A stretch of 36,529 nt of DNA from a virus. The stretch's first letter is position 1. Every line of letters begins with the position of its first letter. The position numbers were made by a program, and so were the translations under genes. Below, piece after piece: positions 217 to 36,166 of this stretch. The DNA lies in IMG/VR virus record IMGVR_UViG_3300021132_000006, positions 1 through 36,529 of that record. One strand, given 5' to 3'. The notes under the pieces are model-generated. The model saw only the letters and a list, made by a program, of their open reading frames with translations. It was not told the origin of the DNA and did not search any database.

Positions 217-231
217 TTTATATTATCTAAT
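217..231 (+). promoter_or_regulatory. Promoter-like motif upstream of the 291 gene
   Basis: The bases TTTATATTATCTAAT match 13 of 15 positions of the TATACATTATCTAAT signal found upstream of genes at 1412, 6829 and 22472. Here it lies 59 bases before the start codon, further than the 24-28 bases elsewhere, and its end overlaps the palindrome at 228-261. If it is a promoter, the palindrome would fall in the 5' leader of the transcript. Confidence 0.35.
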
Positions 232-261
232 TGGAATAATCACTAGTGATTATTCCAATTA
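228..261. terminator. 34-base perfect palindrome centred on ACTAGT
   Basis: Each half runs TAATTGGAATAATCACT read inward, and the two halves are exact reverse complements with no spacer. In RNA the central CTAG would form the loop of a roughly 15-pair hairpin. It lies between the partial gene ending at 190 and the gene starting at 291. No clean T-run follows (CCCTTTT at 273-279), so it may be a terminator for the upstream gene, a leader hairpin, or a protein-binding site. It belongs to the palindrome family found through the window. Confidence 0.55.
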
Positions 262-290
262 ACTTATTCAAACCCTTTTGGAGATTTACA

Positions 291-953
291 ATGAAATATC
301 GTTCTGAATTTAAAGTAAGTGGCCTTACCCGGCCTTTAGTGTTGGCTGCAATTGCAAAGATGGTTGCAGCCGATAATCAGTATCCTTTAGAGAATCCTCA
401 GTTTGGAACTGGGCTGTTAAAAACGGTACCCATCAAGATGAAGGGCAAATTAGTTGGCCATCAACTAGAAGTAATCAATCCTAAAAACTTGGAGATTGAA
501 ACTCAGGTTGAGAAATTTGAGCCTACATGGGATTGGGTTAAATCCCTTAAAGGTCGAGAAATCGGCTGGTGGTCAGAAAATGGAGATAAAGAACTGATTC
601 AGGAGTTTCCCGATGGAAAAAGTTTCTATTATGTTCGTGAAGGAAATCGTGACACCATTCCAGATTGGTTTGCAGCTCTGGCAGATATTAGACCAATGAA
701 GGTGCTAGAGTATCATGATGCACGTAAGCGTGATGCTACACCTTGGCAGAAAAATCTTTTTCCTCTATTTAAAGACCATCCTGAATGGAAGCAAGAAGCA
801 TTGCAATGGTTGGGCCAAGTTGGCATTTATGGTCAGTCGTTAAACGATGTGAAGGAGGCTTGGTCTGTAAAGCGTCTTAATGATGCAATTACTGCCATGG
901 AGGCCATTGATCCAGCCATGGCCAAGAAATTCCAATCAGTATTAAAGGGCTAA
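291..953 (+). CDS. Hypothetical protein, probably abundant (220 aa)
   Basis: The ATG at 291 is preferred over an upstream in-frame GTG at 246 because GGAG at 280-283 is well spaced before it and the GTG lies inside the palindrome. The protein is soluble and rich in tryptophan (for example WDWVKSLKGREIGWW near residues 80-95), with no signal peptide or membrane segment. No family was recognised. Arginine is often encoded by CGT rather than AGA, a bias shared with the capsid gene and unlike most neighbours, which suggests high expression. It ends 6 bases before the next hairpin, so it appears to be transcribed as a single gene. Confidence 0.85.
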   Translation: MKYRSEFKVSGLTRPLVLAAIAKMVAADNQYPLENPQFGTGLLKTVPIKMKGKLVGHQLEVINPKNLEIETQVEKFEPTWDWVKSLKGREIGWWSENGDKELIQEFPDGKSFYYVREGNRDTIPDWFAALADIRPMKVLEYHDARKRDATPWQKNLFPLFKDHPEWKQEALQWLGQVGIYGQSLNDVKEAWSVKRLNDAITAMEAIDPAMAKKFQSVLKG

Positions 954-959
954 TACAGT

Positions 960-4257: not shown

Positions 4258-6603
4258 ATGATCAGAAGAATACAGGCTAATGGTGGTTCTCCAGAGAGAG
4301 AATTACACACTGCTGCAGTAAATGAAGTAGCAGCAGTTATTGCACAGGGTGGAAGTAACTACGTTAATGCTGAGACCGCTAATCAGTTTATCGGACTAGA
4401 AACTTTAAATGACTCTGAATACGGCATGGCAATGTCTAAAAAAGACATGCTGGTTAATGAATTAAAAGGTTGTGATTCATTATGCAAACTGTTAGGTGGC
4501 GCTAAATACAAAGATATGAATCCTATGCGTTTAAATGCAGCATTGGAATCAGCAGCTTACTCTATTCTTTATTCTAAAGAAGCAGCTAGGGCTTACACTG
4601 AAGCTAATCGTTCTATCGTTCCATTGGAAGGTGGTAAAGGTGTTACTGTATCGCCTGCAGACGGTGATCAAACCGGTATTGGTTTAGAATCATTTGATCC
4701 TATTTCAGTGCAAAAATACCTGCCAGCAACTGCTATTGCAAATGCTCAAGCAGCAATCTCTGGTAGTTTTGAAGAAGTTTGGTTTCCACAACAAATTGTA
4801 CCAGCCGGTCAAAACGGTGTGGATGTACAAATTACTATTCCTAAAATCTTTAGTACTACAGCGCACAACTTGTCAAGTCCTTCTGCTTACAGATTGACTA
4901 AAACTAGTTTGATCCAAGCATTGTTAGATCCATCTATTTTGGAATCTGAAGCGACTTCTATTGTTCCTAACTCTGATGTTTCTACTAACTTAACTGCTTT
5001 AGTACCTGCTACTAAAGTTCCAGTTATGTCAAGAAACATTAATGGCAACTCTATTAATACTTTACCAATTTTGTTTGGTACTTCAGCCGACGTATTAGTT
5101 CTTTCATATGCCTCTTCTTTATTTGCAGCAGGCGTATTGGATGAAACTGACTCTCTGGATAACATTATCAATATCGGTACTGTTTATACTCAGTTAACAT
5201 TTAATAATGGTACTAGAACAACCAATGCTATTATTGCAACTGATATTTCTGGTCAATTGGGCGCTGTATTATCACAAGTGAACCAAGGCTTAGGTCAAGA
5301 GTATCAAACTACCATGGTAGCCGCTCTTAGCTTTGACCAAAACTTAAGCACTTATGCATTGACTCCAGTTGCTTCAGGCGCGCTTACTGTTAGTCCAACT
5401 AACATGGTCACTGATATTTTAGCAGCATTAAATATTTCTGGTTCTAGCAATTTCCAAATTGTATTGAATGTTAACTTATCAGCTCGTGCTAACATTGAAC
5501 GTGGTAATGTTCGTGTCGATGCGGCAGGTGCAAGTATTGCGCAAATCTTTGATCCAACCGGTACTTTGGTTTATGACGTTAATGTTCCAGCTCTATCTGC
5601 ATCTAACCCATTATTAGCTGCAACAGGCAGTGCATTTACTGTAACGCCATTAGGCTATCAACCCCTCGCTCGTCGTACTAACAGCAACTTACGTCAAAAT
5701 GGTACTATCATTGATTCTAACACAATGATCATGTATCGTTTCCCTGTAAACTTGCAAGCACCTATTATTTCTCAAGCTCCAATTGGCGCACCTAACAATG
5801 TTACACTGGAAGGTTTAGGCTATGGTGCTAAGATCAGAAACAATGGTCGTGCTGTTCAAGCATTGGCAAATGCTGAAATTGTATTATCACAAATTAATGG
5901 TACTACACTTTCTACAATGAACTACAATTCACCTTTCATGGGTGCAGAGTTTGTAACACCTACTTACATCTATAACCAATTAGATGTTGCACAGGCAGTT
6001 ACTACAATGAACTCTAAAGATGCGTTGGATAACTTAAGAGGTCAATTGATTGCAACGGTTACTAACATGGTAAACCAAATGTTGACTCAATCTCATTACT
6101 TAGCTGCTCTGGAAATGACACTAGGTGACATTGATGCATTTGATATCATTTTAGCAACTGATCCTAAACTGGCTCCACATTTCATGGAATCAGGCGATAC
6201 TCGTACATTCGGTGATGGTCGTCGTTATTTCATTACTAAATCAAATAACAATTTCTTTCATGATGCTACTAACTCATTGTCTAAACTCTACATCTCTTTC
6301 CGTAGAGCTGGTGGTGGTGAAGAAATCCATCCATTAGATTTTGGTAGAATGTTAATTACTCCACCTATTACCTATGATGTGGCTATTAACAGAAATGGTC
6401 GTACAGTACAAGAAATCCATACTGTTCCACGTTGTAATTCTTATGTTACTCTGCCTATCTTAGGTCGTTTGGACGTATTGAACTTGAATACTCTGTACCC
6501 AACATTAGTTACTAATGCTGGTTTAACAGCTACCAACAATGTACCTTCTTACAACTCACAAGCTCCAGTAAACAATCCAACTAATGGTATCATGCATTAC
6601 TAA
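4258..6603 (+). CDS. Probable major capsid protein (781 aa)
   Basis: Assigned as the main shell protein from several lines: length near the approximately 747 residues I recall for phiKZ gp120; location upstream of the portal; and strong codon bias (CGT for arginine, GGT, AAC, ACT) unlike most of the window, as expected of the most abundant protein. The N-terminal 110 residues are helical, then the composition switches to beta-rich, asparagine/threonine-rich sequence. Sites of the S-x-E or A-x-E type favoured by phiKZ-like head proteases occur near the switch, such as SKE at 106-108, so removal of an N-terminal segment is plausible but inferred. ATG 4258 follows AAAAGGA. A palindromic terminator follows the gene. 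No sequence motif proves the HK97 fold by eye. Confidence 0.72.
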   Translation: MIRRIQANGGSPERELHTAAVNEVAAVIAQGGSNYVNAETANQFIGLETLNDSEYGMAMSKKDMLVNELKGCDSLCKLLGGAKYKDMNPMRLNAALESAAYSILYSKEAARAYTEANRSIVPLEGGKGVTVSPADGDQTGIGLESFDPISVQKYLPATAIANAQAAISGSFEEVWFPQQIVPAGQNGVDVQITIPKIFSTTAHNLSSPSAYRLTKTSLIQALLDPSILESEATSIVPNSDVSTNLTALVPATKVPVMSRNINGNSINTLPILFGTSADVLVLSYASSLFAAGVLDETDSLDNIINIGTVYTQLTFNNGTRTTNAIIATDISGQLGAVLSQVNQGLGQEYQTTMVAALSFDQNLSTYALTPVASGALTVSPTNMVTDILAALNISGSSNFQIVLNVNLSARANIERGNVRVDAAGASIAQIFDPTGTLVYDVNVPALSASNPLLAATGSAFTVTPLGYQPLARRTNSNLRQNGTIIDSNTMIMYRFPVNLQAPIISQAPIGAPNNVTLEGLGYGAKIRNNGRAVQALANAEIVLSQINGTTLSTMNYNSPFMGAEFVTPTYIYNQLDVAQAVTTMNSKDALDNLRGQLIATVTNMVNQMLTQSHYLAALEMTLGDIDAFDIILATDPKLAPHFMESGDTRTFGDGRRYFITKSNNNFFHDATNSLSKLYISFRRAGGGEEIHPLDFGRMLITPPITYDVAINRNGRTVQEIHTVPRCNSYVTLPILGRLDVLNLNTLYPTLVTNAGLTATNNVPSYNSQAPVNNPTNGIMHY

Positions 6604-6643
6604 GATTGTTTAGTAAAATAATTAAATAAAAGTAAAAACATGT

Positions 6644-6680
6644 TAGATACACAGAGCCTAGGCTCTGTGTATCTATTTTT
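6644..6680 (+). terminator. 32-base perfect palindrome centred on CCTAGG, then T5
   Basis: The perfect palindrome at 6644-6675 has half-site TAGATACACAGAGCCT and is immediately followed by TTTTT. It closes the 146-residue protein/capsid unit. Unlike most of its relatives, the T-run directly abuts the stem here, so this is the most conventional terminator of the set. Confidence 0.75.
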
Positions 6681-6785
6681 ACAGTCTATATTTCATTAGT
6701 GTCGCACAAGGATTTAGTTAAAGCAAACAACTTGGGTATCCTACTATAGCTATGTCTTCTTTTTTATTCTTAAAAAAATTAAATA
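6681..6785. other. Non-coding gap between capsid terminator and next promoter
   Basis: About 105 bases with no open frame of useful length. It contains a more GC-balanced patch (GTCGCACAAGG near 6701 and CTTGGGTATCC near 6731), then a T-rich stretch TCTTCTTTTTTATTC. A short untranslated RNA is possible but there is no clear fold. Nothing else is recognised. Confidence 0.3.
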
Positions 6786-6802
6786 TATACATTATCTAAT
6801 TA
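6786..6802 (+). promoter_or_regulatory. Phage promoter-like motif
   Basis: TATACATTATCTAATTA lies 26 bases before ATG 6829, after a terminator and a non-coding gap, exactly where a promoter for the following three-gene operon is needed. It matches the signals at 1368 and 22431 over at least 14 consecutive bases. Confidence 0.6.
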
Positions 6803-6828
6803 CATATGCCACTTTAAAGGAATATAAA

Positions 6829-8175
6829 ATGGAAAAAACTAAAAGTAGATTTCGTGAAACAATAGATGCGACTGTGGTAGAAGGAACATTTCAGAAAGAT
6901 AATAGGGATATGATCACTAAATTAAATGCATTAGGTTATGGCAATATAATGCATTCTACATTGGAATATATCAACAATACACCGTCTAAAATTTATATTA
7001 GTTTTAGAGATGGTAGTGTTAGTTTATTACCACCAGTTTGTAATCCAGACTTACCTAAAGAATTCATTGTAGTCCACAGAAAAAGAGTTTCAGGAAATCC
7101 AGACTTTAAAATATTTGTTAGACCGATTAATGGAAATGATCCATTAACTGAGCAGCTAACAGCTATTGCTAATGAAAACCAAAATAGATGCATTGAATGG
7201 ATTGAAACAATTCCATTTAAATTGCTAAAGAAAAAAACTAGAGGAGTCTATTTAGCTCGCTCTGATGTAATGATTACTTTAGGTTGTAATGGAAAAACCA
7301 TATACGACCACCCTTTTAACAAAGAAGCTGTCATGACTAACTATCTTAATCATCATGACAGATTTAACCCGGAGACAGACTTTATGGCAGCAGTAATGTA
7401 TATGCCCGAAAATCCAGAAATTCAGCATCAGCCAATTTATGCTGTATGGAATAACATAATCGCTGAAGTTAAACCAAAACGACCCAATGTTAAAGTAGCA
7501 CCTGGTGTAAAATTTGCAGGCTTTTCTAAAGAAGAGGAAGGTGTTGATTCTAACATGATGATAAATTTTACTTTAGAACAGGTATTGAATCATCAAGGTC
7601 CAGTTCCATGCTTTAGAACTCATGCTGAAGCAGTGGATTGGATTAGGAAGGGAAATAACCAACAAGCTTATAGTTTAAAACAGTATGAGCTTGAAATAGA
7701 AAGAACTAAAAAAGATATTGCAGCTCAGCAGCTTGAACTGAGTCAACTAAAAATTGATTTAGAAAATGCAAAAGCAAGACGTGATGAAGCGCAAGCTATT
7801 TTAGATGCCAAGAATAAAGAAGAAGAAGCTAGACTCGATAAAATAAAAAGGGCGCATGAAGAAGAAATGTTAAAGCTTAAAGCCGAAATGGCACGAGAGA
7901 AAGATAAAATAGAAAGAGAAAAGTTAGCGGCAGATAAAGAAGATTTGGAAAGAAAAAGAGAACAGGCTAGAGTTGAGGAGGCGTTTGCAAAAGAAAAGAT
8001 AAAATATGAACAAGAAAGAATGAAGTCAGAAGAAAGAACAGCTAAGGAAGAAAGAGAAAAAGCTAAGACAAAGTCACGAATGCAATTTTTTACCGATTTA
8101 GCGAAAGTAGTAGTCACAGCGATTACCACAGCATTCGCTGTATTTAAGATTATGAAGACAGCGGCTGCTGGGTAA
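6829..8175 (+). CDS. Coiled-coil protein with C-terminal membrane segment (448 aa)
   Basis: Three parts are visible: a mixed globular N-terminal region (about residues 1-275), a long highly charged coiled coil (about 282-415, dense in E, K, R and A with heptad-like leucine/isoleucine spacing), and a hydrophobic C-terminal stretch near 424-441 (VVVTAITTAFAVF) followed by a short tail. This is a tail-anchored membrane topology, or a hydrophobic virion-associated tail. No signal peptide is present. ATG 6829 follows AAAGGA. It is the first gene of the operon with the 555- and 506-residue proteins. It could tether something to the membrane or be a structural component; no named family was recognised. 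Confidence 0.85.
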   Translation: MEKTKSRFRETIDATVVEGTFQKDNRDMITKLNALGYGNIMHSTLEYINNTPSKIYISFRDGSVSLLPPVCNPDLPKEFIVVHRKRVSGNPDFKIFVRPINGNDPLTEQLTAIANENQNRCIEWIETIPFKLLKKKTRGVYLARSDVMITLGCNGKTIYDHPFNKEAVMTNYLNHHDRFNPETDFMAAVMYMPENPEIQHQPIYAVWNNIIAEVKPKRPNVKVAPGVKFAGFSKEEEGVDSNMMINFTLEQVLNHQGPVPCFRTHAEAVDWIRKGNNQQAYSLKQYELEIERTKKDIAAQQLELSQLKIDLENAKARRDEAQAILDAKNKEEEARLDKIKRAHEEEMLKLKAEMAREKDKIEREKLAADKEDLERKREQARVEEAFAKEKIKYEQERMKSEERTAKEEREKAKTKSRMQFFTDLAKVVVTAITTAFAVFKIMKTAAAG

Positions 8176-8177
8176 AA

Positions 8178-8203
8178 ATATACAATGCAGTTGTATTGTA
8201 TAT
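8178..8203. repeat. Small inverted repeat in an operon gap
   Basis: Arms ATATACAAT and ATTGTATAT flank eight bases, between the stop at 8175 and the ribosome site AGGAGA of the gene at 8228. No T-run follows, so termination is unlikely. A role in message processing or translation of the next gene is possible. Confidence 0.35.
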
Positions 8204-8227
8204 CCCAACCACAATTAGGAGATATAC

Positions 8228-9895
8228 ATGCCAATAGATTTAAATCTATTAGGTCTAGTTGATGCCCAACAGCCTCGAATGAATAAAAAGATTATAAATA
8301 ATATTGCCGTTAATCAAGTTAATGAAGAAGCAGAAGCTTGGATACACGATACTATTCGTTGCGCATCTGAATCCTTCCCGCCAGGTTTAATTTATACTGG
8401 TGGTAAAAGATGCACACCTGTTGAGCAATTTAGAGAAATTACTCGGCAGTTAAAACCAACGAGATCTTTTGACCTATTAAGATCCGATGTATACCTGATG
8501 AAGTACCAATTCAAGTTTAAAGGTACAGAAGTTCGCCCCCACTACAGTTTTTTACCATTCATAAGTGATGGCGGGATTTATTATTTAAAGGGTACCCAAT
8601 ATCTGTTGACACCAGTAGTGGGAGGCAAAGTTTTCAACATTGAGAAAAATAGTATTTATATGCCCACGCCTAAAATTAGGATGGGTTTTCATCAGAAGGA
8701 CGTGTCATGTTATCTTAACAATAGGGTAATAAATTCAAGTTGCGTTACCAGCTATCTCATGAATGGTATGAAAGAAAAAGAGAGAGCTCAGTTAAATCCA
8801 ACATTAGTGCACTATATGTTGGCTGAATATGGTTTGCCAGAAATGCTTAGACGCTTATTTAAAGTCAATGCAAAGATAGGTAAACAAGAGTTAGATCAAT
8901 TAGATCTAAATGAGTGGATGGTCTATCGGAGTAGGCAGCTTCCACCTGTTGTAAATAAGGGCGATTATACCCCCACTGAAATTAGGATTGCTATTAATAA
9001 AGGAGAGTACTATCCTTTACTCGATGGCATTATTGCGACTATCTTTTATATCATAGATAATTGTAGTGATAATTTAGCTGAAGTTGAAGATTTAGCTATT
9101 CCTGATTTATGGTTAATACTACTGGATAGATTTATCTATCGTATCAGTGGTACAGAAAGAAAGCAATATGAGAAAATGGAAACCCATTTACAGTCTACTA
9201 AGTCTAATATGGATCCGATTACTCGTAGAGTGTTAGCCAGTGATAACATACATTGCAATGATATCTTTGAGTTATTCCATTATATTTGTGTTAACTTTCA
9301 AGATATAGTTATCCATCATGATGTCGGTAGCATGTATTATAAAGAGCTATCAACTGTCAAGCATTTACTATACCATGTTGTATATAACATACATATGGCA
9401 ATGTATATGTTGCAAAAACTACCGGAGAATTTGCAGACAGTAGAAAAGATTAATAATATCATGATGAAAAAGCTAACTAAAGATGCTATCTTTACAACCA
9501 TGGGACATGGTGAGTTAACACCTATTAGTATTGCAACCGATTGTAAAATGTTTGCAGCAACTTGTAATACCATTTCTCATGGTAAAGCAACTGTAGTCGG
9601 TGGTAATAAACGGGCTAAGAAAGTAACTAATGATCCTGGATTATTATTACATGCATCACAGGCAGAGGTAGGTACTTATCAGTGGATTGGTAATAAAGAT
9701 CCATTGGGTAGGGAAAAGATGAATCCATTTGTAAACTTTGGTGAAAGAACTTATATTACACCTAGACCTGAATTAGAAGAGGAAATTAACTCGATAAGAC
9801 AGTTACTAGGAAAACATAAGATTTCTAATCTAATTGAACATGAATTGGATGAGGTAGAGGAACTGAGAGATTTGAAAATAAAAGGAGAAGATTAA
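8228..9895 (+). CDS. Candidate N-terminal part of an RNA polymerase beta-like subunit (555 aa)
   Basis: Residues 109-125 read LPFISDGGIYYLKGTQ, which lines up without gaps with the bacterial RpoB segment IPLMTDNGTFVINGTE (from memory). About 70-100 residues later LVHYMLAEYGLPEMLRRLF resembles, in the expected order, the RpoB segment on IILRALNY and the following LF. phiKZ-type phages split beta into separate N- and C-terminal proteins, and the non-virion N-terminal one (gp123) lies between capsid and portal genes as here. No catalytic residue would be expected in this part. The alternative is an unrelated virion protein. ATG 8228 follows AGGAGATAT. The stop is one base before the next gene. 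An earlier in-frame start is absent. Confidence 0.5.
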   Translation: MPIDLNLLGLVDAQQPRMNKKIINNIAVNQVNEEAEAWIHDTIRCASESFPPGLIYTGGKRCTPVEQFREITRQLKPTRSFDLLRSDVYLMKYQFKFKGTEVRPHYSFLPFISDGGIYYLKGTQYLLTPVVGGKVFNIEKNSIYMPTPKIRMGFHQKDVSCYLNNRVINSSCVTSYLMNGMKEKERAQLNPTLVHYMLAEYGLPEMLRRLFKVNAKIGKQELDQLDLNEWMVYRSRQLPPVVNKGDYTPTEIRIAINKGEYYPLLDGIIATIFYIIDNCSDNLAEVEDLAIPDLWLILLDRFIYRISGTERKQYEKMETHLQSTKSNMDPITRRVLASDNIHCNDIFELFHYICVNFQDIVIHHDVGSMYYKELSTVKHLLYHVVYNIHMAMYMLQKLPENLQTVEKINNIMMKKLTKDAIFTTMGHGELTPISIATDCKMFAATCNTISHGKATVVGGNKRAKKVTNDPGLLLHASQAEVGTYQWIGNKDPLGREKMNPFVNFGERTYITPRPELEEEINSIRQLLGKHKISNLIEHELDEVEELRDLKIKGED

Positions 9896-9896
9896 A

Positions 9897-11469: not shown

Positions 11470-11470
11470 G

Positions 11471-11824: not shown

Positions 11825-11839
11825 TTGTGGCTACTCCTC

Positions 11840-12388: not shown

Positions 12389-12390
12389 CT

Positions 12391-13236: not shown

Positions 13237-13251
13237 ATTAATCCTAAATGT

Positions 13252-22427: not shown

Positions 22428-22430
22428 ATC

Positions 22431-25364: not shown

Positions 25365-26033
25365 TTATACTACGATATACTTATCTTCTTTGACAAACTC
25401 TTCTAGCTTAAATAAAGCTATTTTATTATTTCTGTTAATGAAGTAGGCCTCCTCGCCAGCAGCTGTTCCATAGATAGGACCAGCAATACCTTTAAAGAAA
25501 GATACGCTAGGAAAAGATACAGGAGATATTGTTTTTCCACTATCTAATAATTTAATCGCTTCTTCAAAGGTATAAGTTTGGTTTTGCTCATACATTTTTT
25601 GTTTTAAAAGATAGCCTTCTAATTCCCATATTTTCTCATAAGCTTTTTCTCTGGCGTATTTCTCACCCATTGCTTTATTAAAAATGGTAGCATCAACACA
25701 AGACGATTCACCTGTTACCACAAACCCGTTTAGCAATGTTAAGGCACAATGAGTGATAGTAGTACCTATAACGCGACTATATTGCTCGTCAATGATAATA
25801 CTATCAATATGCTCTTTAGTAACTGTATTAGCCATGCCGTAGGTTAAGCCACTTACTTGACGATTGTATTTTTCAAACTCGACCTTTGGGCACCAAGATA
25901 AATAACCATCTGGGTATTTAACCTGATAACCTAGAGCACCCACTGGATGTACACCGCGTCTATCTTCTTCAGTCGCTGCTCTTTCAAAAGCTTCTACTAA
26001 TTTAACACCGATGTATTGTTTATATTCTGACAT
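25365..26033 (-). CDS. N4 gp49 / Sf6 gp66-family protein with N-terminal extension (222 aa)
   Basis: The central part matches the Phage_gp49_66 pattern: HCALTLLNGFVVTGESSCVD followed by a helix with GEKYAREKAYEKIWELEGYLL at about residues 96-143. The N-terminal 60 residues carry another widespread small-phage-protein pattern (YIGVKLVEAF, GYQVKYPDGYLSWCPKVEF). The C-terminal part (about 175-222) is unassigned. These families are common in phages and prophages; their biochemical role is not established. GGGAA is spaced before ATG 26033. Flanked by hairpins, it forms its own unit. Confidence 0.8.
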   Translation of the reverse strand: MSEYKQYIGVKLVEAFERAATEEDRRGVHPVGALGYQVKYPDGYLSWCPKVEFEKYNRQVSGLTYGMANTVTKEHIDSIIIDEQYSRVIGTTITHCALTLLNGFVVTGESSCVDATIFNKAMGEKYAREKAYEKIWELEGYLLKQKMYEQNQTYTFEEAIKLLDSGKTISPVSFPSVSFFKGIAGPIYGTAAGEEAYFINRNNKIALFKLEEFVKEDKYIVV

Positions 26034-26050: not shown

Positions 26051-26089
26051 GTGAGTTAAAGACTGCCTTTTGGCACAGTATTAACTCAC
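26051..26089. terminator. Imperfect hairpin between minus-strand genes
   Basis: Outer arms GTGAGTTAA and TTAACTCAC pair perfectly. The inner part (ACTGCC and GGCACAGT) pairs with a bulge around a TTTT loop. It lies downstream of the lipoprotein gene and upstream of the gp49-like gene on the minus strand. No T-run is present on the minus strand. Confidence 0.5.
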
Positions 26090-26550: not shown

Positions 26551-29500
26551 TTACTTCCAAACTAATGTATTCCAATAACTTAAAGAAGGCGCACCTACTT
26601 TAGCAAAATAGCTATTGTTATACATATAAAAATTACTCATATAAACCCAGCTATTATTAACATAGACCATGGGTTTACTCGTATATGTATTACTAGGTGA
26701 AATAGGTATAGTAATAGTAGGCATTCCCATTCTACCAGCCGTTTGACTATAGAGTCTAGGCCTTGGAAATTGATAATACTGAGTATCAGTATAATTGCTC
26801 TTATCAGATAAACCCCATTGTCCACTGGATGCCCACTGTACACTACTTTCCCATTGGTTATAAACAGCGGCATCTAGATCACAGTTACTCATCATAGGCA
26901 ACATGGTATTAGTCCACCAATTAAATTGCTGTAATGATAGATTATAAACAGTGTTAGTGGGTGCATCTTCTTCAAAGCATAACTGCATAATAGCTTGTAG
27001 CATTAAAGGGCTAGGTCCGGCACTACCGAATCCTCCTTCATACATACAAATAAGTGGACTGTATAGATCGCCTGTACTGTCTCTACCTAATACGCCATTA
27101 CTGCCAGTGCTAATAGTACTGGATAAAATACCTATTGCTGCTGCTGTTTCTTGACTAGTCTGATTATTTAAAGAGGTTGCAAAGATAGGCTCTAATTCTT
27201 CTTTAGTCCAAGGCCACTCATTGGGAGATGCTGCTAACGTATTAGCATTAACTGTTGCATCACCTATAATGTCATAATAGCCTGCAGGTGTAATAACATC
27301 ATACGGAATATTAAAGTCCGCAGTACAGTAAGGCAATGCAAAGGACCATATTTGAGAAGTAATGGATTGACTACCCTGCATGGTACTTAAACATCTAAAT
27401 AATCGTCTTTTTTGATTCTTAGGATTATCCCATAGTCTTGGAGGATTGAGTTTATTCCTACAGCCGATAAATACATTAGCAAAGATATTAAATACTTTTT
27501 GAGATAAAATAGCATATGCAAACATGTGATTATACCATAGCAAATTAGGTGGATTTGAATATACCTTAGTGCTATCATACCCATAAAAGGTAGCCGCTTG
27601 AGTAATCCAATAACCAGGTCCTAGTCCACCATTCCACTGCTCATTGCCATATTCAATATAAAGTCTTAATGAGGGATCTAAAGTACTTTGAAATAGATTA
27701 GCAATATACCAATAATAAGCATCCCCATCCGAGGAATAAACGGGTATGTTAATCCAGCAATCTTTCTTAACTAAATTACACAAGCCAATAATAACAGATA
27801 AGGGCACCATATTACCATTAGCCCATGATACATGAGACTCAGTAGTTAAACTATTAATAGATGTTAAGTACTGATAGCTATTACCTGCCATCCAGTCTAG
27901 AAATCTTAAGCATTTAAAATCAGCTAATCTATTAATAAAATCTGGATAAAAAATATCACCAGCATTAACTAAATCAGCATATTGAGTTTCAAAGACTTTA
28001 ATATTTCTAACATAGTTTCCATTGTTATTAGGATTACTACTTTTAATGATAGTAAAAATACCTGTCTCAGAGTTTAAAGCAGTATAACCTTGCAGTGTTA
28101 AATTACCATTAGTATCATAGCCTCTATAGTATTTAAAACTAGCGGATGTCTTGGTGTTAGCCGTATAGTTTTGACCACCCCAAGGGATAGTTACCTTATT
28201 ATGATTGCTAGTATCTATCTTACAGATAAAGCCATTTCCAGTACCACCCATTAAAGTATTATCTACTGTATAAACAGTATTTGCATCGCCTCCAGTAGGC
28301 GCTGTAGTCACAAAAACTGCTGATACATACTTTGCATAGTAATCCACACAAAGTGTTGCCACGGGCATTACAGAAGGCCGTGTGCCACTACTATAACTTA
28401 AGGTAATATTAGTATAGGTAGTAAAGGCAGCACTACCACTGGTATCGACGTAATATAAGGCACTATTTGAAGTAGAAGATATTAAAGTGGCAGGATACTG
28501 TTTAGGTAAAATAGCTACATCGGTCTCTAAGGCAACAATGCCCTCGCCATCCCAAGTAACTGTATAATAACCTGTTGGTAAAATAGGATGATTCAGCTGT
28601 GCTACTGGATTTAAAAATAATAAAAATGATATTGGTGTTGTTCTATAGACTAAAGAATATAGATAATAACCAACCGGTAAGTTTCTAGGATAACCATCTG
28701 AATCTAAATTCAAAATAGTATAATCATCTATAAGCTCTGCCTTAATACCATATTGACCACTACTGTTTCCTGTAAAGGGAGTATCAACTACCCAAGTAAC
28801 CAAGTTAGTCGTGTTATTAACAGTAAAAGAAACTACTTTAGTATTGTTGGCCACATTAGTGCCAATTAATAATCTAACTAAATTAGTGGGATCAAAACTC
28901 CACCAACTATCACCATTATTACTAGGGGAAGTCATCGTCGTTGAACCCGTAGTAAAGACTACACCATTTAATATTAGACGAGTACCTAATACATTACTAG
29001 AAGTATCAATGTTATTAACCGATAAAGATCTATAGAGTCTCCAGAGTGTAGTCGACTGAGCAGGCCATGTGCCAGTTGGATCATTTACAGTGAGTACAGG
29101 ACTTGCATTACTTAACTTCATTAAATTAAGAAATATTTTAGCAGTTCCATAATAACTACAACCTGCTACATCTATACCAATGTGATGATGAGGATATTCA
29201 TCTTCAGCTAATATTCCACCTGAGGTTATCTTGCTAGGGCCATTAACATGTTGCAGTGTATGTGAGCTATTATAAACTTCTGAGTCAATACCTGGAAAGC
29301 TATAGGCATATAACTGATAAGGATCAGGAAAATATACTGAAGGCACAGTCCCTTCATTAATCATTATTCCATAGATGTAATAACTACTGTATAAAGGTGA
29401 CCATGGCGTATGAATACCATCATTTGGATTAGTAGGCATAAAAGCTGTAATAGTCCAGGAATTAGTATTCTGAGTAAATAAAGGTCCTGCATTATTCCCA

Positions 29501-32500
29501 GGTCTATCTAGAAAATGAGTTAAGTTATTCATAGGTAGAGTAGCTGTAAATGGTAAAGATACCCTAGTCCAGACATTGGGTAGGATACTGATATTAGTAG
29601 GTGTAGTCTTACTACTATTATCATAAATCCTAATACCACCATAAATAGATAAATAACCGGTAAAAAAGAAACCATAGCCTACGGGCTTAGTTAAATCTTG
29701 ATTAACAGAGTCATAAAGGCTATAAGCCTGAGTAGATTGATATCTCCAGGTATCCCCAAATAGGGTACCATAGAACTGGAATATCTTAACCACCTTAGTA
29801 CCATCTTTCATTGGGTAAATAACAGCCCATGCTGTAATAGAAGCTAGTTTAGTAGAATCTAATGCAACAATTGTATTTCCATTGCCATTTACATACGAGT
29901 AATCGGCAGCATATTTAGCCCATAGATCATAATTGTAGCTACTGGTATTGGGATCATACGCTAATTCTTGATAGATTAAAACAGATGATTTAATATTAGC
30001 AATTTCAGTAGGTAGACTCGTTGCTGTAGAGATATCATAAACGGTACTATTAGTCCAGCCTTGTACTAACAGACTAGTAGAGCCATTATTACTAATGGCT
30101 CTAATTTGGTCAGCTCGTTTAGTAAACAATAACTCATTAGTAGGTATTACATTAGGAATACCCATGTCATTGTATAAACCTGCATTATTACTATCATTTT
30201 GTAAAATGATAGAATAACTACCATTTAATGTTTTCCATGATGGATCAGCTAAATTACCTTCAGAGCCTTGAACCTGTAAACCTGTATTCCAATTACCACC
30301 TGGACTTACTGACATAGTTCCTGTTAACGGTAAGTACTTAGACATTACCCAACAGGAAATAACATATTGTTTTCCTATAGTTAAAGCAGGCAATAGATTC
30401 CAAGATAAAGGTGTGCTAAAATAACTACCAATTAACGTAGGATCATTAGGCGCTTGTATTAGATCAGCAGCATTGCCTAAGTAAGCTGGGTTATTAACAA
30501 TATCGGCAGGCGGCGTCGCTACGTCATTAATGATCTGTGTTCCAACACTTGTATTAACAGTATATAAGAAAGCATTGTTAACTAACTTACCGATAGTATT
30601 TCCCCATGGAAAATAGTTTTTCCCTAAGTAAGTAGTCTGTGCTAATCTATAAGGGTCAAAAGGTACTGTTGTTAGCTCATGATTAGAGTTGTATAAATCA
30701 ATAGATGGGAAGCGGGTATCACTAGCTGAGTCATCATCTATTCCATAACCATTAAAGTTATATGAAAATAAATAAGGCTCTAAATAAGAAATAGGTACAT
30801 TACCTAAGACATTATTAAACCCATAAAACACAATGCTAGTAGCACCTGTCATATAGACAACTAAGGTAGCTGCATTACTGCTAATATTAGCAGGCACAGT
30901 ATAGGTATAAGTGTAAGTAGTCCAAGCCGTTGCTGCGGTTACAAAGTTATCATAATTGGTTTGATATCCACTGGTAGCTGTATTATTTAAATAAAGATTA
31001 GTACTTAAGTTATTAATACTTACCCTTAAGCGCAGTGCAAAGCTACTACCATTAGGATTTATTCTGTTAGCACTAAAGGTTAATGTATAGGTAGCTCCAG
31101 CAGACACTGTAATAGCTTTACTAACACCGCCATAACTACCTGTATCTGATACGACTAGGCTAGTTAATTTAGAGGTATTACCAGGATTCTCATATAGACT
31201 ATTAGTAATAGTTAATCCAGCTTGAGAACCAATCGTGCCTACTGCTATGCTAAACCCAGATCCTTTATTTCCAAGCAGTGTATTACTGCATGTAAAGGTA
31301 GTGGTAGTGCTCGTAATGCCAGAACCATTAGTGACTAGAGTAACAGAAGATACTGATCCATTATAAACAGTAATATTTACAACAGGACATGTTGTAACAG
31401 CTGTACCTGAGTTATAAACTAATTGTACGTTATTATAAACACCGTCCGCATAACCACTACCTGCTACTAAATTATTTAATGCAGTGACTGTATTTAGAGT
31501 AGATTTAGTATAAGTCCATTTAGTTAAATCATAAGAGTCTGGAAAGGGCAATAAATTGTAATTATGTACCCTATACCTAGCTGGATCAAATGGTGTAGTA
31601 ATCAGATTACCTGAGCTATCCTTTAAATCAATAGAGACCGTATTACTCAGTACAGTATCATCATCCATACCTAACATGCCATAAGACATATTGGTTTCAA
31701 CATAGCCAGTATTACTAGTATCCAGTACCCCGCCCCAAATAACGACTTGAGAGGCATTAGCTATTTGCGGGTAAGGCGCACTAATATTAATAGTAACACG
31801 AGTAGTGGATGTATTAACAAAAGTACTAGGCGTAGTCAAATTCCAAACTATTCTGGTATAAGGTGTTAATCCAGTTAATGCAGAATGACTAATACTAAAC
31901 CCACTACCTGTTCCACCAATAGAAGAAGGCGCTACTGAATATAGTGTAGTAATATCCCCACCGACTGGATTATTTACCAAGGCTACATTAACCACTTTAC
32001 CTGCAGTCACTGTAATGTTAGCCGTAGGTAGGGTAGTAACAATAGTACCTGAAACATAAGTTAAAGTAACATTAGGATAAACAGTTGTACATAAAGGTGT
32101 ATAACCGCCTCCACCTATTATAGTGGAGGTACTAGCGCTATAAGTAAATCCAGATCCAGTCCCACCTAATAGATTGCTAGTAGCTGTATAAATAGTTGTG
32201 TTATCACCGCCGGTAACTGGTGTTACAATGGTAACTGTACTAACACTACCATTAATGACTTTAATATTGGCAACGGGATAAACGGAAGGTGGCGTACCAG
32301 AGACTAAAGTTAAGGTTACATTGTTATAAGTAGCTTCTTGATAAGAAGGTGTATAGCCACTACCTTGAGTAAAAGTAGTGGGTGAAGATAGATACTTGGT
32401 GGTTGCTGTTGTTGTAGTGCCTGTATTAGAATCCCAGTAAATGCTATTAACACCTTGAGTTAGATTTAAACTAAAACTAACATATTTACCAATCGGCGTA

Positions 32501-32721
32501 TACGTGTAAAAAGAAAACCAATAAGTAGTGTTTGGCTGGAGAATGATATCCTCATATAACCCACCATAGGCATTAATATCGGGTACTATTAAATCAGCTA
32601 AATTATCTGTTCCAAATGGATTTTGAGCAATGTCCTTATAAATAGTAAAGCATGGTACACCACCTGTCGTTTTATTAAAAGACCACAGATTAAACGATGT
32701 TGGGTTTAAGAGTAAATTCAT
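26551..32721 (-). CDS. Giant tailspike/fibre with glycoside-hydrolase-like domain (2056 aa)
   Basis: ATG 32721 follows TAGGATTT; the in-frame TTG at 32733 is less likely. The N-terminal two thirds are threonine, serine, asparagine and glycine-rich beta sequence, with four copies of a module of about 75 residues (NVTLTYVSGT, P-ANI-V, GGTGSGF) near residues 120-197, 200-280, 423-493 and 1432-1498. YYTVTWDGEGIVAL near 1390 and RFLDWM through YIEYGNEQWNG match a glycoside-hydrolase-type module seen in depolymerase-like proteins. E1694 in GNEQW would be the acid/base and E1895 in MYEGGFG the nucleophile. It probably binds and cuts a capsular or surface polysaccharide. One continuous frame of 6171 bases is unusually long. 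Confidence 0.8.
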   Translation of the reverse strand: MNLLLNPTSFNLWSFNKTTGGVPCFTIYKDIAQNPFGTDNLADLIVPDINAYGGLYEDIILQPNTTYWFSFYTYTPIGKYVSFSLNLTQGVNSIYWDSNTGTTTTATTKYLSSPTTFTQGSGYTPSYQEATYNNVTLTLVSGTPPSVYPVANIKVINGSVSTVTIVTPVTGGDNTTIYTATSNLLGGTGSGFTYSASTSTIIGGGGYTPLCTTVYPNVTLTYVSGTIVTTLPTANITVTAGKVVNVALVNNPVGGDITTLYSVAPSSIGGTGSGFSISHSALTGLTPYTRIVWNLTTPSTFVNTSTTRVTINISAPYPQIANASQVVIWGGVLDTSNTGYVETNMSYGMLGMDDDTVLSNTVSIDLKDSSGNLITTPFDPARYRVHNYNLLPFPDSYDLTKWTYTKSTLNTVTALNNLVAGSGYADGVYNNVQLVYNSGTAVTTCPVVNITVYNGSVSSVTLVTNGSGITSTTTTFTCSNTLLGNKGSGFSIAVGTIGSQAGLTITNSLYENPGNTSKLTSLVVSDTGSYGGVSKAITVSAGATYTLTFSANRINPNGSSFALRLRVSINNLSTNLYLNNTATSGYQTNYDNFVTAATAWTTYTYTYTVPANISSNAATLVVYMTGATSIVFYGFNNVLGNVPISYLEPYLFSYNFNGYGIDDDSASDTRFPSIDLYNSNHELTTVPFDPYRLAQTTYLGKNYFPWGNTIGKLVNNAFLYTVNTSVGTQIINDVATPPADIVNNPAYLGNAADLIQAPNDPTLIGSYFSTPLSWNLLPALTIGKQYVISCWVMSKYLPLTGTMSVSPGGNWNTGLQVQGSEGNLADPSWKTLNGSYSIILQNDSNNAGLYNDMGIPNVIPTNELLFTKRADQIRAISNNGSTSLLVQGWTNSTVYDISTATSLPTEIANIKSSVLIYQELAYDPNTSSYNYDLWAKYAADYSYVNGNGNTIVALDSTKLASITAWAVIYPMKDGTKVVKIFQFYGTLFGDTWRYQSTQAYSLYDSVNQDLTKPVGYGFFFTGYLSIYGGIRIYDNSSKTTPTNISILPNVWTRVSLPFTATLPMNNLTHFLDRPGNNAGPLFTQNTNSWTITAFMPTNPNDGIHTPWSPLYSSYYIYGIMINEGTVPSVYFPDPYQLYAYSFPGIDSEVYNSSHTLQHVNGPSKITSGGILAEDEYPHHHIGIDVAGCSYYGTAKIFLNLMKLSNASPVLTVNDPTGTWPAQSTTLWRLYRSLSVNNIDTSSNVLGTRLILNGVVFTTGSTTMTSPSNNGDSWWSFDPTNLVRLLIGTNVANNTKVVSFTVNNTTNLVTWVVDTPFTGNSSGQYGIKAELIDDYTILNLDSDGYPRNLPVGYYLYSLVYRTTPISFLLFLNPVAQLNHPILPTGYYTVTWDGEGIVALETDVAILPKQYPATLISSTSNSALYYVDTSGSAAFTTYTNITLSYSSGTRPSVMPVATLCVDYYAKYVSAVFVTTAPTGGDANTVYTVDNTLMGGTGNGFICKIDTSNHNKVTIPWGGQNYTANTKTSASFKYYRGYDTNGNLTLQGYTALNSETGIFTIIKSSNPNNNGNYVRNIKVFETQYADLVNAGDIFYPDFINRLADFKCLRFLDWMAGNSYQYLTSINSLTTESHVSWANGNMVPLSVIIGLCNLVKKDCWINIPVYSSDGDAYYWYIANLFQSTLDPSLRLYIEYGNEQWNGGLGPGYWITQAATFYGYDSTKVYSNPPNLLWYNHMFAYAILSQKVFNIFANVFIGCRNKLNPPRLWDNPKNQKRRLFRCLSTMQGSQSITSQIWSFALPYCTADFNIPYDVITPAGYYDIIGDATVNANTLAASPNEWPWTKEELEPIFATSLNNQTSQETAAAIGILSSTISTGSNGVLGRDSTGDLYSPLICMYEGGFGSAGPSPLMLQAIMQLCFEEDAPTNTVYNLSLQQFNWWTNTMLPMMSNCDLDAAVYNQWESSVQWASSGQWGLSDKSNYTDTQYYQFPRPRLYSQTAGRMGMPTITIPISPSNTYTSKPMVYVNNSWVYMSNFYMYNNSYFAKVGAPSLSYWNTLVWK
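31882..32364 (-). repeat. Tandem pair of beta-rich repeat modules inside the tailspike gene
   Basis: Two adjacent copies encode about 75 residues each with shared marks GYTP, NVTLT-VSGT, P-ANI-V, GGD-TT-Y and GGTGSGF. Two further single copies occur at about 31240-31455 and 28215-28435. Sequence between copies has diverged, so the duplication is not recent. Spacing suggests independent modules inserted between larger domains. Confidence 0.65.
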
Positions 32722-32746
32722 AAATCCTACCAAAAAATAAAATTAA

Positions 32747-33229: not shown

Positions 33230-33234
33230 AATGT

Positions 33235-36084
33235 TTATCTCACTAAGTTAGTAACTGAATATAATAAATAATCTAAAGCAATGTAATCAATGCTGGTAGT
33301 TGAAGTACTGTAAGCTGATAAATAAACTCTCATTGGCATCGCATTAGTGCTGGGTATATACTGAGCTAAAGCAGCAGCTGTTGTTCCATTAGCTGTTCTA
33401 ATGGCAGCAACTGTACTACCCCCACCATTAGCACTTTGCACACCTACTAGTGTTAATGTATTAGTAAATACTACAGTATCACTACTGTTTAAAATGTTAT
33501 AGGCAATGCTAATATCCATGTCACCACCGCTAGGATAAGTAGTCGTTATTACTATCTGGAATGTATACCAGACATTAGCTGATACTGTAAAAGTAGTAGA
33601 TGTGTGAACATTTGTATTATAGTTTGGCAAATAAGGACTACCAGAGTGATTACAATAACCGGTAAATACAGCGCCTGTATTTTTAAAGTAAATACCATTA
33701 GTAGAAGATCCACTGGTATTACCATCATAAATACCAAAAATAAATATCTCATTAGATGATGGTAGAGTTGGGAACATCACTTGATTTTCATAGGTATAAA
33801 CTGTTGGGTTAGTGGTATTAGCTGTAGGAAATATCATTATTTCCTTATCTGCCCAAATACCATTTCCATTACCACTCGTTCCAGAGTTTAAAGTCACTAC
33901 ACCAGGATGATTAGGGTCTATATAAGCTGTACTAGCTCCTTGCCAGTAATTGCCGTATTGATTAATCAAAGAAAAGGGTGCAAAAGTAGTATTTACCGAA
34001 CTAATGAAATCACACATTAAAGTGGTGGATGTTCTAGTAAAACCACCTGAAGCACCTGCTGGTCCTGTAGCACCGGTAGCACCTACCTGAGTAATAGAGA
34101 TTGGTTGTATAGCTTGATAAATGGTAATACTATCTGACATGGTAATAACTAGCTTAACTGCATTACTTGCTAAAGCTGAGTTAAAGTTACTGGCTAATGT
34201 AGGTGTAAACGTAGCGGCAGTGCTTGTACCCGATAATAAACTATTAGCACTATTAGGAATACTCCAAGCTATTGTATAATTGCTAGAATTAACAGTAGCT
34301 CCATTTTGCGTAAAGGTAAAACTAAATGCTTGTATGGCAGGTGCAAAGCTAGTGCCTGCTGCATTATATAAAAAGCTAGTCGTGTTACTAGTAATAAATA
34401 ACTGAGTAGTAGGACCTGCTGCACCATTACTACCTATTGATCCATTAGTGCCATTTGCACCATTAGTTCCTAATTGAGTAATGGAAATAGGCTGAGTGAC
34501 CACATAAGTACCAGAACCATCATTCATTGTAATAGTTAGTGTAATAGCATTATTACATTTAGTCGCATCAAAAGTACTATTTAAAGTAGGTGCAAAGCTA
34601 GTGCCTGTAGTTGATCCACTCACTGTAAATAAACTATTCGTAGGATCTGACAATGCCCAAGCTATTGAATAAAGTGAAGAACTTACCGCTACCCCATTTT
34701 TTGTAAATACAAAGGTATAAGGAGCTACAGAGCTTGGATATTTAGTACCATTATTTGGGTTATAAGTAAAGGTAGTATAACCCCCTGTAATATATACTTG
34801 AGTAGAGGGTCCAGCAGGTCCAGTCACTAAAGTACTCGGATCAGTTGGATTAATCCATACATCACCAAAGACAGGCGTGCTAGGCTGAGTACTGGTTACA
34901 AAGACTCTACTGTTCATATAGTTTAATCTAGAATCATTCCCTTGACAAAAAGTACCAGCCGTTGTACCATACGTAGGTGTAACGGTACCACTGGTATTTA
35001 TTAGTCCATTAGTAAAGGTTAAATTAGCAGAAGCATGAGAGGATACATAGTTAATTGCACTCACTAAATCGGTTGTAGCGCCTGGCAAATTAGCCATTGT
35101 ACCAATCTTTGTATTAACAGAAGTTAAAGAAGTGTTAACTGAATTAATAGCTGAAATAATACTCGTTGCACTGACAGTTAGATTACTTAATAAACCAATA
35201 GCACTATTTCCACTTGTTTCAAAAATAGCAATCCTATTACTGAGAGCTGTATCCGCATTCGTTCGACTAGCCGTTTCTGCAGACAGTGTGGAGGCAGAAG
35301 CTAAGCTACCTAAAGAACTAGTGCTAGCATAATTAGCTAAAGTTGTTGATAAGCTACTAGAGGTAACATAATTGGCTGAACTAGCAGTAATGCTATTTAT
35401 TGCAGCAACAATACTGGATGCGCTATTAGTCAATGTAGATAAAGAACCTATTGCGCTGCTGCCAGATTCAAACACAGCTAGTCTATTACTTAATGTAGTA
35501 ATCGCAGAGCTGCGGTTAGTAATCTCACTAGATAACGAAGAAGCTAATGCATAACTAGAAAGTGTAGAAGTTAACCCACTAGAAGTTACATAACCTGCTA
35601 ATGTAGTTGCTAAAGATGTATTAGAGACTAAATTACTCGTGTTTACGTTGCTTCCACCACCATTAGCAAAGTAGGTATTTAAAGTAGTGTTAATGTTATC
35701 AATGGAGGTAACCATTGACGTAGAAACATTATAGGCTGCTAATACACTAGTTAATTGAGAATTAATGTAACTAATAGCTGAAACAATAGTTGATGTGCCA
35801 TTAGGTAAATTATTTAAATTACCTGTTAGACTACTAACATAGTTTACCAAGCCTAGAGTGGATGGATAATCATTGCTATTAACATTAGATAAAATAGCAT
35901 CTACCTTATTAGATAGACTCTCTTTAGTAGTAATAGCATTTTGTAAAGATTGAATATTGGGTACTTGTATTGAATTAATGGTTGTTTGCAAACCAGCAAT
36001 CGTACTATTAAATGTAGTATTTTGTACATTAAATAGATTTAATAGGTCTTCAAATTTCTGATAGAGTATATCGGTTGTACTCAT
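33235..36084 (-). CDS. Long tail fibre with collagen-like and Ig-like repeats (949 aa)
   Basis: The N-terminal 390 residues are low-complexity serine, alanine, leucine and asparagine-rich, with several repeats of an ETxSRTxADTALSNRIAIFE-like pattern and LVSAINYVSS-like segments, fitting a trimeric fibre shaft. TPTYGTTAGTFCQGNDSRL near 362-382 is a common phage-fibre motif. Then a collagen-like GPAGPS, an Ig-like repeat (about 428-545), a G-x-y stretch (TNGANGTNGSIGSNGAAG), a second Ig-like repeat (about 558-665), another G-x-y stretch, and a unique C-terminal domain (about 675-949) that should be the receptor-binding tip. AAGGAA is spaced before ATG 36084. It forms a unit with the next two genes downstream. 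Confidence 0.8.
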   Translation of the reverse strand: MSTTDILYQKFEDLLNLFNVQNTTFNSTIAGLQTTINSIQVPNIQSLQNAITTKESLSNKVDAILSNVNSNDYPSTLGLVNYVSSLTGNLNNLPNGTSTIVSAISYINSQLTSVLAAYNVSTSMVTSIDNINTTLNTYFANGGGSNVNTSNLVSNTSLATTLAGYVTSSGLTSTLSSYALASSLSSEITNRSSAITTLSNRLAVFESGSSAIGSLSTLTNSASSIVAAINSITASSANYVTSSSLSTTLANYASTSSLGSLASASTLSAETASRTNADTALSNRIAIFETSGNSAIGLLSNLTVSATSIISAINSVNTSLTSVNTKIGTMANLPGATTDLVSAINYVSSHASANLTFTNGLINTSGTVTPTYGTTAGTFCQGNDSRLNYMNSRVFVTSTQPSTPVFGDVWINPTDPSTLVTGPAGPSTQVYITGGYTTFTYNPNNGTKYPSSVAPYTFVFTKNGVAVSSSLYSIAWALSDPTNSLFTVSGSTTGTSFAPTLNSTFDATKCNNAITLTITMNDGSGTYVVTQPISITQLGTNGANGTNGSIGSNGAAGPTTQLFITSNTTSFLYNAAGTSFAPAIQAFSFTFTQNGATVNSSNYTIAWSIPNSANSLLSGTSTAATFTPTLASNFNSALASNAVKLVITMSDSITIYQAIQPISITQVGATGATGPAGASGGFTRTSTTLMCDFISSVNTTFAPFSLINQYGNYWQGASTAYIDPNHPGVVTLNSGTSGNGNGIWADKEIMIFPTANTTNPTVYTYENQVMFPTLPSSNEIFIFGIYDGNTSGSSTNGIYFKNTGAVFTGYCNHSGSPYLPNYNTNVHTSTTFTVSANVWYTFQIVITTTYPSGGDMDISIAYNILNSSDTVVFTNTLTLVGVQSANGGGSTVAAIRTANGTTAAALAQYIPSTNAMPMRVYLSAYSTSTTSIDYIALDYLLYSVTNLVR
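34075..34805 (-). repeat. Duplicated Ig-like module in the tail fibre gene
   Basis: Two copies of about 115 residues, each starting TQ-(V/L)-(Y/F)IT, with A--F-F-FT-NG--V-SS-Y-IAW in the middle and ending QPISITQ-G, are each followed by a collagen-like G-x-y segment. Divergence between copies shows an old duplication. Confidence 0.65.
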
Positions 36085-36134
36085 GATTAGAGTTCCTTAT
36101 AAGAGTTCCATACATAGAATTTTGTAAACATAAT

Positions 36135-36166
36135 GAGCATAGAGAGGATTAATCCTCTCTATGCTC
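36135..36166. terminator. 32-base perfect palindrome centred on ATTAAT
   Basis: The half-site GAGCATAGAGAGGATT is followed by its exact complement. It sits downstream of the partial fibre gene on the minus strand and upstream of the 949-residue fibre. On the minus strand the next bases are ATTATGTTTAC, the ATTATG seen after other hairpins here, but no T-run follows. The ATTATG lies 45 bases before the fibre start. Confidence 0.6.

Follow-up and report, generated by a model that had tools for sequence, protein, structure and literature searches.

The 36,529-base stretch of viral DNA analysed here (IMG/VR record IMGVR_UViG_3300021132_000006, positions 1 to 36,529; the window) carries long palindromes between its genes, and we conclude that these are most probably intrinsic transcription terminators of a multisubunit RNA polymerase encoded by the phage itself. 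We infer termination from the position of the palindromes, the paired changes in their arms, a run of T on the sense side and the polymerase genes of the phage. In the proposed mechanism, transcription of a palindrome past a stop codon would let the nascent RNA fold into a hairpin of 13-15 base pairs (bp) with a tight tip, and the polymerase would stop in the T-rich tail, which is sometimes TATGTTTT. Such a stop would prevent run-in to the next promoter or, in a convergent gap, to the opposite unit; in a convergent gap one palindrome would serve both directions.

The window is a mismatch-free part of the 220,366-base IMG/VR contig IMGVR_UViG_3300021142_000002, here called G001. Judged by its genes, the source is a phiKZ-like jumbo phage. 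We found PHROG matches in the window to a DnaB-like helicase, a major head protein and a 'polymerase', families typical of phiKZ relatives, and the major capsid protein is 32% identical to its counterpart in Vibrio phage Yong XC31. The phiKZ-type order of capsid, helicase and RNA polymerase genes is shared with BONAISHI, pir03, sm033, pVa-21, LucasX and PhiPA3. An earlier note on this DNA had supposed a phage with its own polymerase, and this is borne out by a homologue of phiKZ gp123 in the window and by an RNA_pol_Rpb2_6 match in G001, a second polymerase match that lies elsewhere in the contig. The Pfam profile RNA_pol_Rpb1_5 gave no match in G001. A polymerase that includes the product of the following gene would be the reader of the palindrome signals.

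8228-9895, + strand: gene for a phiKZ gp123-type non-virion RNA polymerase subunit, assigned by homology.

The earlier note had described long perfect palindromes that lie only between genes. Nine of the fifteen sites are exact and spacer-free, 30-34 bp long, and two more are near-perfect (960-991 and 19893-19921); the description does not hold for the other four. All fifteen sites are intergenic, as judged against a hand-picked list of open reading frames (ORFs). The word 'only' was too strong for inverted repeats at large, since others occur inside genes: one with an arm of 13 and a centre of 1 nucleotide (nt) at 19251-19277 within a 154-amino-acid (aa) ORF (19201-19665, no Pfam match), and looped repeats with arms of 10-11 within large genes (13125-13151, 30078-30103 and 30191-30212). 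Spacer-free palindromes inside genes of the window reach an arm of 9 at most. The fifteen sites are as follows.

228-261, + strand: exact 34-bp palindrome directly 3' of a promoter motif (212-230); nearest sense stop codon 37 nt away.
960-991, + strand: 32-bp palindrome with one broken pair (15/16 paired), 6 nt past the stop at 953; TATGTTTTTT in the tail.
1300-1327, + strand: 12-bp stem with a 4-nt loop, 6 nt past the stop at 1293; T-run from 1342.
2136-2169, no strand assigned: exact 34-bp palindrome next to the 3' end of the helicase gene, in a convergent gap.
6644-6675, + strand: exact 32-bp palindrome, 40 nt past the stop of the major capsid protein gene.
11436-11469, no strand assigned: exact 34-bp palindrome; it occupies the convergent gap that follows the polymerase gene block.
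18099-18132, + strand: exact 34-bp palindrome, 7 nt past the stop of a virion structural protein gene.
19036-19069, + strand: exact 34-bp palindrome, 5 nt past the stop of the 63-aa ORF 18839-19030; TATGTTTTTTTT in the tail.
19678-19699, + strand: ordinary terminator-like hairpin with an 8-bp stem, a 6-nt loop and a T-rich tail.
19893-19921, + strand: 14-bp stem around a single base, centre CCCTAAGGG, 227 nt from a stop and 56 nt before the ribonucleotide reductase ORF.
22392-22423, + strand: exact 32-bp palindrome, flanked by the stop at 22381 and the promoter motif at 22426-22444.
24590-24619, no strand assigned: exact 30-bp palindrome next to the 3' end of an endolysin-like gene, in a convergent gap.
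25304-25348, - strand: 19-bp stem with a 7-nt loop, after the gene at 25365-26033 (-).
26051-26089, - strand: imperfect stem-loop of 9 + 4 bp with an internal loop; 10/19 mirrored pairs, not a palindrome.
36135-36166, - strand: exact 32-bp palindrome just beyond the gene at 36181-36528 (-); tail ATTATGTTTA.

The folding energy of all fifteen sites lies 4.3-11.3 standard deviations below that of their own shuffles. Nine spacer-free arms of 15-17 bp are present in the window, and the maximum in 200 Markov shuffles was 11; a chance origin was ruled out by the shuffles together with the intergenic bias. Twelve of the fifteen sites lie within 21 nt of a sense stop codon, the exceptions being those at 228, 6644 and 19893 (37, 40 and 227 nt). 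When the gaps of at least 30 nt were sorted by orientation, one of the fifteen was held by 3/3 convergent, 11/13 co-directional and 0/2 divergent gaps. Among seven phages compared by gene layout, the window counted, a hairpin stands at the end of the major capsid gene in six, with none in Yong XC31 at that cut-off, and the convergent gap corresponding to 11436-11469 holds a hairpin in all seven (matched by layout, the flanking genes partly checked).

We then scored hairpins over the whole of G001, requiring an outer arm of 10 bp or more and allowing no more than one mismatch. This gave 71 hairpins between genes and 27 inside them, though 90.5% of the contig is coding (p=2e-50); equal frequency inside genes, which the earlier note had named as the result that would speak against its claim, was thus not what we saw. 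Earlier scans with other gene calls and thresholds gave, for example, 63 intergenic and 5 in-gene hairpins (arms of at least 12). Spacer-free hairpins account for 38/71 of the intergenic and 0/27 of the in-gene set in G001; among in-gene hairpins of two relatives they number 2/19 (G002) and 2/26 (G003).

Twelve phages or contigs were scanned alike (G001-G004, G006-G008, AR9, BONAISHI, phiKZ, Yong XC31 and PhiPA3). Five of these, G001, G002, G003, G006 and G007, form one clade with 100/100 support in polymerase and capsid trees of 16 rows. In these five, taken in that order, hairpins fill 13/14, 5/7, 14/15, 13/16 and 7/8 of the convergent gaps and 3/14, 2/7, 2/15, 1/16 and 0/8 of the divergent ones. 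Co-directional gaps of G001 hold a hairpin in 48 of 182 cases, the median distance being 11.5 nt from the stop upstream and 65.5 nt to the start that follows. Convergent gaps are likewise filled in AR9 (20/23), BONAISHI (21/24), Yong XC31 (23/25) and G004 (20/23). Gene-end hairpins are therefore widespread in the relatives, and the loop-free form is found mainly in one clade.

If the hairpins matter as structures, their pairing should outlast their sequence. We compared G006 and G007, which share 68 reciprocal best hits at a mean identity of 79%. At orthologous gene ends a hairpin was present in both phages in 20 cases, in one phage only in 1 and 5 cases, and in neither in 42. The 20 shared ends represent 15 distinct hairpins. 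An alignment starting at the centre was possible for nine of these hairpins, and two of the nine were identical. In the nine, 130 pairs were unchanged, 18 had changed on both sides and one, the innermost pair, on one side only. The pairing is therefore either selected or copied between the arms. Hairpin-bearing gene ends also coincide between G001 and G002 (p=1.6e-5), G003 (2e-7), G006 (5e-7), Yong XC31 (4.5e-4) and BONAISHI (5e-3), at mean protein identities of 30-43%. As far as these comparisons go, hairpin positions are conserved and stem sequences turn over. The idea of selection on hairpin shape is supported by both the two-sided changes and the co-occurrence of hairpin ends.

Two marks point to the strand on which the hairpin acts. 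At co-directional hairpins of G001-G003, TTTT occurs within 16 nt downstream in 51/116 cases and in the mirrored upstream stretch in 18/116 (p=3e-6). Furthermore, imperfect pairs read in the sense strand of G004, Yong XC31, PhiPA3, phiKZ, AR9 and BONAISHI (pooled) show GU and AC in a ratio of 137:29 (p=5e-18), an excess that marks an RNA hairpin in these six other phages. We conclude that the hairpin acts as sense RNA, most likely as a terminator.

Several results weigh against this conclusion. No TTTT lies within 16 nt at 65/116 of the co-directional hairpins. In the five loopless phages the GU:AC ratio is 21:14 (p=0.31), imperfect pairs being few, and the difference between the six looped or intermediate phages and these five is itself significant (p=0.006); in G008, which belongs to neither group, it is 2:6, and all such mismatch counts contain chance two-mismatch hairpins (in shuffled gaps at most 9 per loopless phage and 16 in AR9). 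The covariation count of 18 against 1 comes from a scan that allows at most one mismatch, so that one-sided changes are under-detected, and it leaves aside 6 of the 15 shared G006/G007 hairpins, whose stems are largely unrelated; at 6 orthologous ends the hairpin is in one phage alone. The strict criterion fills just 5/20 convergent gaps in phiKZ and 6/22 in PhiPA3, and 5/21 shorter relative loci (at most 22 kb; L038 and L042-L045) have no intergenic hairpin at the cut-off used. Hairpin shape by itself gives no reason for a complementary centre, which an RNA hairpin does not need, though exact palindromes dominate the tetraloop class in the five phages. Finally, hairpins lie in 12/17 co-directional gaps that bear a promoter motif and in 36/78 without one (gaps of at least 25 nt; counts alone), and the hairpins at 228-261 and 1379-1400 directly follow a promoter core, ATTATC, and stop short of the start region of the gene that comes next.

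The promoter motif concerned is a putative early one with the consensus TAATATATACATTATCTAA, with 28 matches above cut-off in G001. Of these, 22 lie between genes and in every case share the strand of the gene that follows; 18 of the 22 stand 28-50 nt before its start; in co-directional gaps a hairpin lies at most 80 nt upstream of the motif in 10/18 cases. By eye the motif resembles the jumbo phage motif published for OBP and N1M2, as far as the available text of those sources gives it. The following features of the window are concerned.

212-230, + strand: promoter motif directly before the palindrome at 228-261.
1363-1381, + strand: promoter motif of the unit starting at 1412.
1379-1400, + strand: leader hairpin of 10 bp with a 2-nt centre, directly after the promoter motif at 1363-1381.
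6781-6799, + strand: promoter motif for the unit that begins at 6829; the palindrome at 6644-6675 lies upstream of it.
22426-22444, + strand: promoter motif directly after the palindrome at 22392-22423.

By its place, 228-261 is probably the 5'-leader hairpin of the unit starting at 291 rather than a 3' terminator. Similar leader hairpins were found in G002 (66408), G003 (80189), G006 (19087, 91330 and 132598) and G007 (52814), and one G006/G007 leader pair, among the nine aligned sites, shows two compensatory changes with its GAAA loop kept. Judging from their position, leader hairpins are a second, 5'-end use of hairpins, and it is possible that they serve as 5'-end mRNA stabilisers. We also considered whether TATG after the palindromes marks a late promoter; the available part of a review places TATG over the start site of phiKZ late promoters (PMC7598289). 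This was rejected, as TATG is also common in convergent gaps, where firing would be antisense: in G001 it occurs within 14 nt downstream at 16/49 co-directional and 6/15 convergent hairpins, and in the mirrored upstream stretch at 7/49 and 9/15, over a background of about 6% of 14-nt windows genome-wide. TATG would read better as part of the terminator tail.

The centre of the palindromes requires an account of its own. Exact palindromes make up 131 of the 240 intergenic hairpins in the five phages, with arms mostly of 15-18 bp and a spacer of 0, and 107 of the 131 have TA at the centre (G001 34/38, G002 15/21, G003 30/32, G006 21/31, G007 7/9). The loopless share of the tetraloop class is 38/48, 21/28, 32/38, 31/43 and 9/15 in the same order, and elsewhere 10/15 in G008, 11/32 in AR9, 10/40 in BONAISHI, 1/7 in phiKZ, 3/27 in Yong XC31, 1/18 in G004 and 0/11 in PhiPA3; at two shorter loci it is 2/4 (L099) and 0/2 (L100), and the spacer-free share at others is 2/6 (L046), 1/4 (L047) and 1/1 (L040). 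G008, likewise loopless, falls outside the five-phage clade, so that the loop-free form may or may not have a single origin. Base composition does not produce the zero loops, with 3.7/48 expected and 38 seen in G001, and 2.9 expected and 11/32 seen in AR9 (28% GC).

No sequence is shared beyond the centre apart from small stem families, which speaks against a REP-like dispersed repeat. REP elements are dispersed palindromic repeats whose copies have one common sequence; only small families are present in G001 (10 similar pairs listed). Within one genome, such families comprise G001 71138/87323/152862, G001 30242/70299/148679, and the window sites 960 and 19036 with G001 146633, the stem of 960-991 being similar to that of 19036-19069. 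The similar stems, some with matched two-arm differences, suggest that some terminators may have spread by duplication. In G003 one palindrome is present in three copies whose short flanks, to the extent listed, also agree (4-37, 150289-150322 and 181019-181052), two of them near the contig ends.

What maintains the symmetry? Our data lead us to conclude that something beyond sense RNA appears to keep arms and centre symmetric in the loopless clade. As the leading but still tentative possibility, held at somewhat below even odds, the loopless TA-centred form may be kept by DNA-level events in which one arm serves as the model for the other (template switching, or the correction of quasi-palindromes), on top of selection on the RNA hairpin. 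At orthologous ends in G007 (12513) and G006 (50285), the loops AACT and AGTT are reverse complements within the same closing pairs, as if inverted, and this may be a hint of template switching. In the available text of Monttinen and Loytynoja (2022), template-switch hairpins likewise show two-arm matched changes and inverted loops as footprints (PMC8794818). However, that text concerns RNA genes such as rRNA rather than phage terminators, and it leaves the TA centre unexplained. With the same reserve, just short of an even balance, we propose for the clade as a whole that looped terminators were replaced by TA-centred exact palindromes, identical on both strands, whose arms evolve in concert through template switching or two-strand selection.

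Selection on both strands alone would mean that the palindromes must work in both directions everywhere, antisense ends included, with GU pairs and non-palindromic tips counter-selected. Consistent with this, the fraction of perfect Watson-Crick hairpins is 0.75-0.88 in the five loopless phages and 0.09-0.61 in phiKZ, PhiPA3, Yong XC31, BONAISHI and G004 (AR9 0.73, G008 0.55); the low GU:AC ratio of the five fits as well, and convergent gaps are richer in loopless hairpins (37/53 vs 80/148 co-directional, p=0.052). However, the T-run of co-directional sites is enriched on the sense side only (51 vs 18 of 116), loopless hairpins are frequent at those 80/148 co-directional sites too, and in G001 alone the shares are equal (29/49 co-directional, 9/15 convergent). 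We therefore regard a two-strand constraint as somewhat unlikely; two-way use as the sole reason for the palindromic centre is weak, since co-directional sites have the same centre.

Alternatively, the polymerase or a phage factor might favour an N-UA-N' tip closed by one pair, palindromy being a by-product of the self-complementarity of UA. In G001-G003, hairpins with a complementary next pair have TA as the innermost dinucleotide in 79/102 cases, and ten further dinucleotide types occur once or twice each, the self-complementary CG and GC once each; triloops are TAA, TTA or TAT in 11/19. Yet AT is in excess as well (10/102, and 10/46 in G006 and G007, where TA is 28/46), and no clear preference is seen among C-G, A-T and T-A for the added pair. 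We know of no such tip motif, and tip recognition seems unlikely.

The earlier note had left open whether the hairpins are terminators or RNA-processing sites; that pair of functions is supported at the level of sequence, and we take termination as the more probable of the two. RNA processing or 3'-end protection, as under the hairpin rule of mimivirus (Mimiviridae), would give the same outward look: in the available part of that work, 3'-end palindromes without conserved sequence occur in a large virus that has a polymerase of its own (PMC4402537). There, however, the palindromes guide both polyadenylation and cutting by an RNase III-like enzyme of the virus. No RNase III domain (Ribonuclease_3, PF00636) was found in the 220-kb contig, though the contig may lack part of the genome and the enzyme could come from the host; the same search was positive in 8/14 control genomes. 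The sense-side T-run suits termination, and we consider RNA processing quite improbable.

A role at the level of DNA, as cruciforms, protein-binding sites or signals for replication or packaging, would account for a DNA symmetry that is exact up to and including the centre, and a RuvC-like Holliday junction resolvase gene is present (11840-12388; PHROG match, Pfam match below cut-off), whose product, it is proposed, could act on cruciforms extruded from the palindromes. Against this, the hairpins follow the logic of transcription (convergent gaps yes, divergent mostly no), carry the T-run on the sense side and, apart from small stem families, have no common sequence beyond the centre, which makes a DNA-level role very unlikely. 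Hairpin promoters, as used by the N4 virion polymerase, would bring palindromes and a phage polymerase together, but they are extremely improbable here, because divergent gaps, which need promoters, mostly lack hairpins (3/14, 2/7, 2/15, 1/16 and 0/8) and a separate promoter motif exists.

The window also contains two further features of note. Two very long ORFs, 26551-32733 (2060 aa) and 33235-36084 (949 aa), have no PHROG match, and the 949-aa ORF has no Pfam match. No tRNAs were found in the window and no Rfam match at gathering thresholds; positions 6500-18500, the sole stretch queried by megablast against the phage collection, returned no DNA relatives.

To place the proposed termination by these palindromes beside known systems, we compared them with published descriptions, here taken from the parts of each source that were available. 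Xanthomonas phage LucasX and Klebsiella phage N1M2 have predicted intrinsic terminators, and RNA-Seq of AR9 showed strong termination at predicted sites. The terminators of phiKZ-like and AR9-like phages resemble ours in being hairpins at gene ends, with a single one in each convergent gap and frequently at matching borders. They differ in phiKZ, PhiPA3 and Yong XC31 in that genuine loops, UUCG among them, are present and GU pairs are common, whereas the five-phage clade has a complementary centre and near-perfect pairing; G004 has looped hairpins too, and the loopless share of AR9 (11/32) and BONAISHI (10/40) lies in between. According to bulk surveys, inverted repeats cluster past stop codons, with spacers mostly of 4 nt in bacteria and of 0 or 4 in viruses (PMC13155455). 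Gene-end repeats of E. coli are mostly parts of intrinsic terminators (PMC6060812); unlike the loopless clade, E. coli is poor in repeats of at least 13 bp with spacers of at most 8 (PMC6060812).

Within the available text, palindromes come up in the BONAISHI and pir03 papers only in connection with CRISPR and a protein repeat, a review of jumbo phage polymerases treats promoters and names no terminator structure (PMC7598289), and a 2026 review of jumbo phages contains none of the words terminator, hairpin and palindrome. We found no description of loop-free palindromic terminators in jumbo phages in the open-licence PMC literature, as far as its available text goes, which is no proof of absence. 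Hairpin terminators at gene ends are thus already known, and the loop-free TA-centred design is the part without a description in the literature searched.

Termination by the multisubunit RNA polymerases of jumbo phages seems little studied. In the five phages there are some 240 candidate stop signals, all easy to score, and the relatives of these phages provide looped controls at many of the same borders. The five phages also present a clean natural case in which perfect hairpins kept by selection can be set against template-switch mutation. If the palindromes do terminate, they could be compact two-way terminators for laboratory constructs. And if the arms do evolve in concert, these terminators would be self-repairing, with whole stems replaceable while the site persists.

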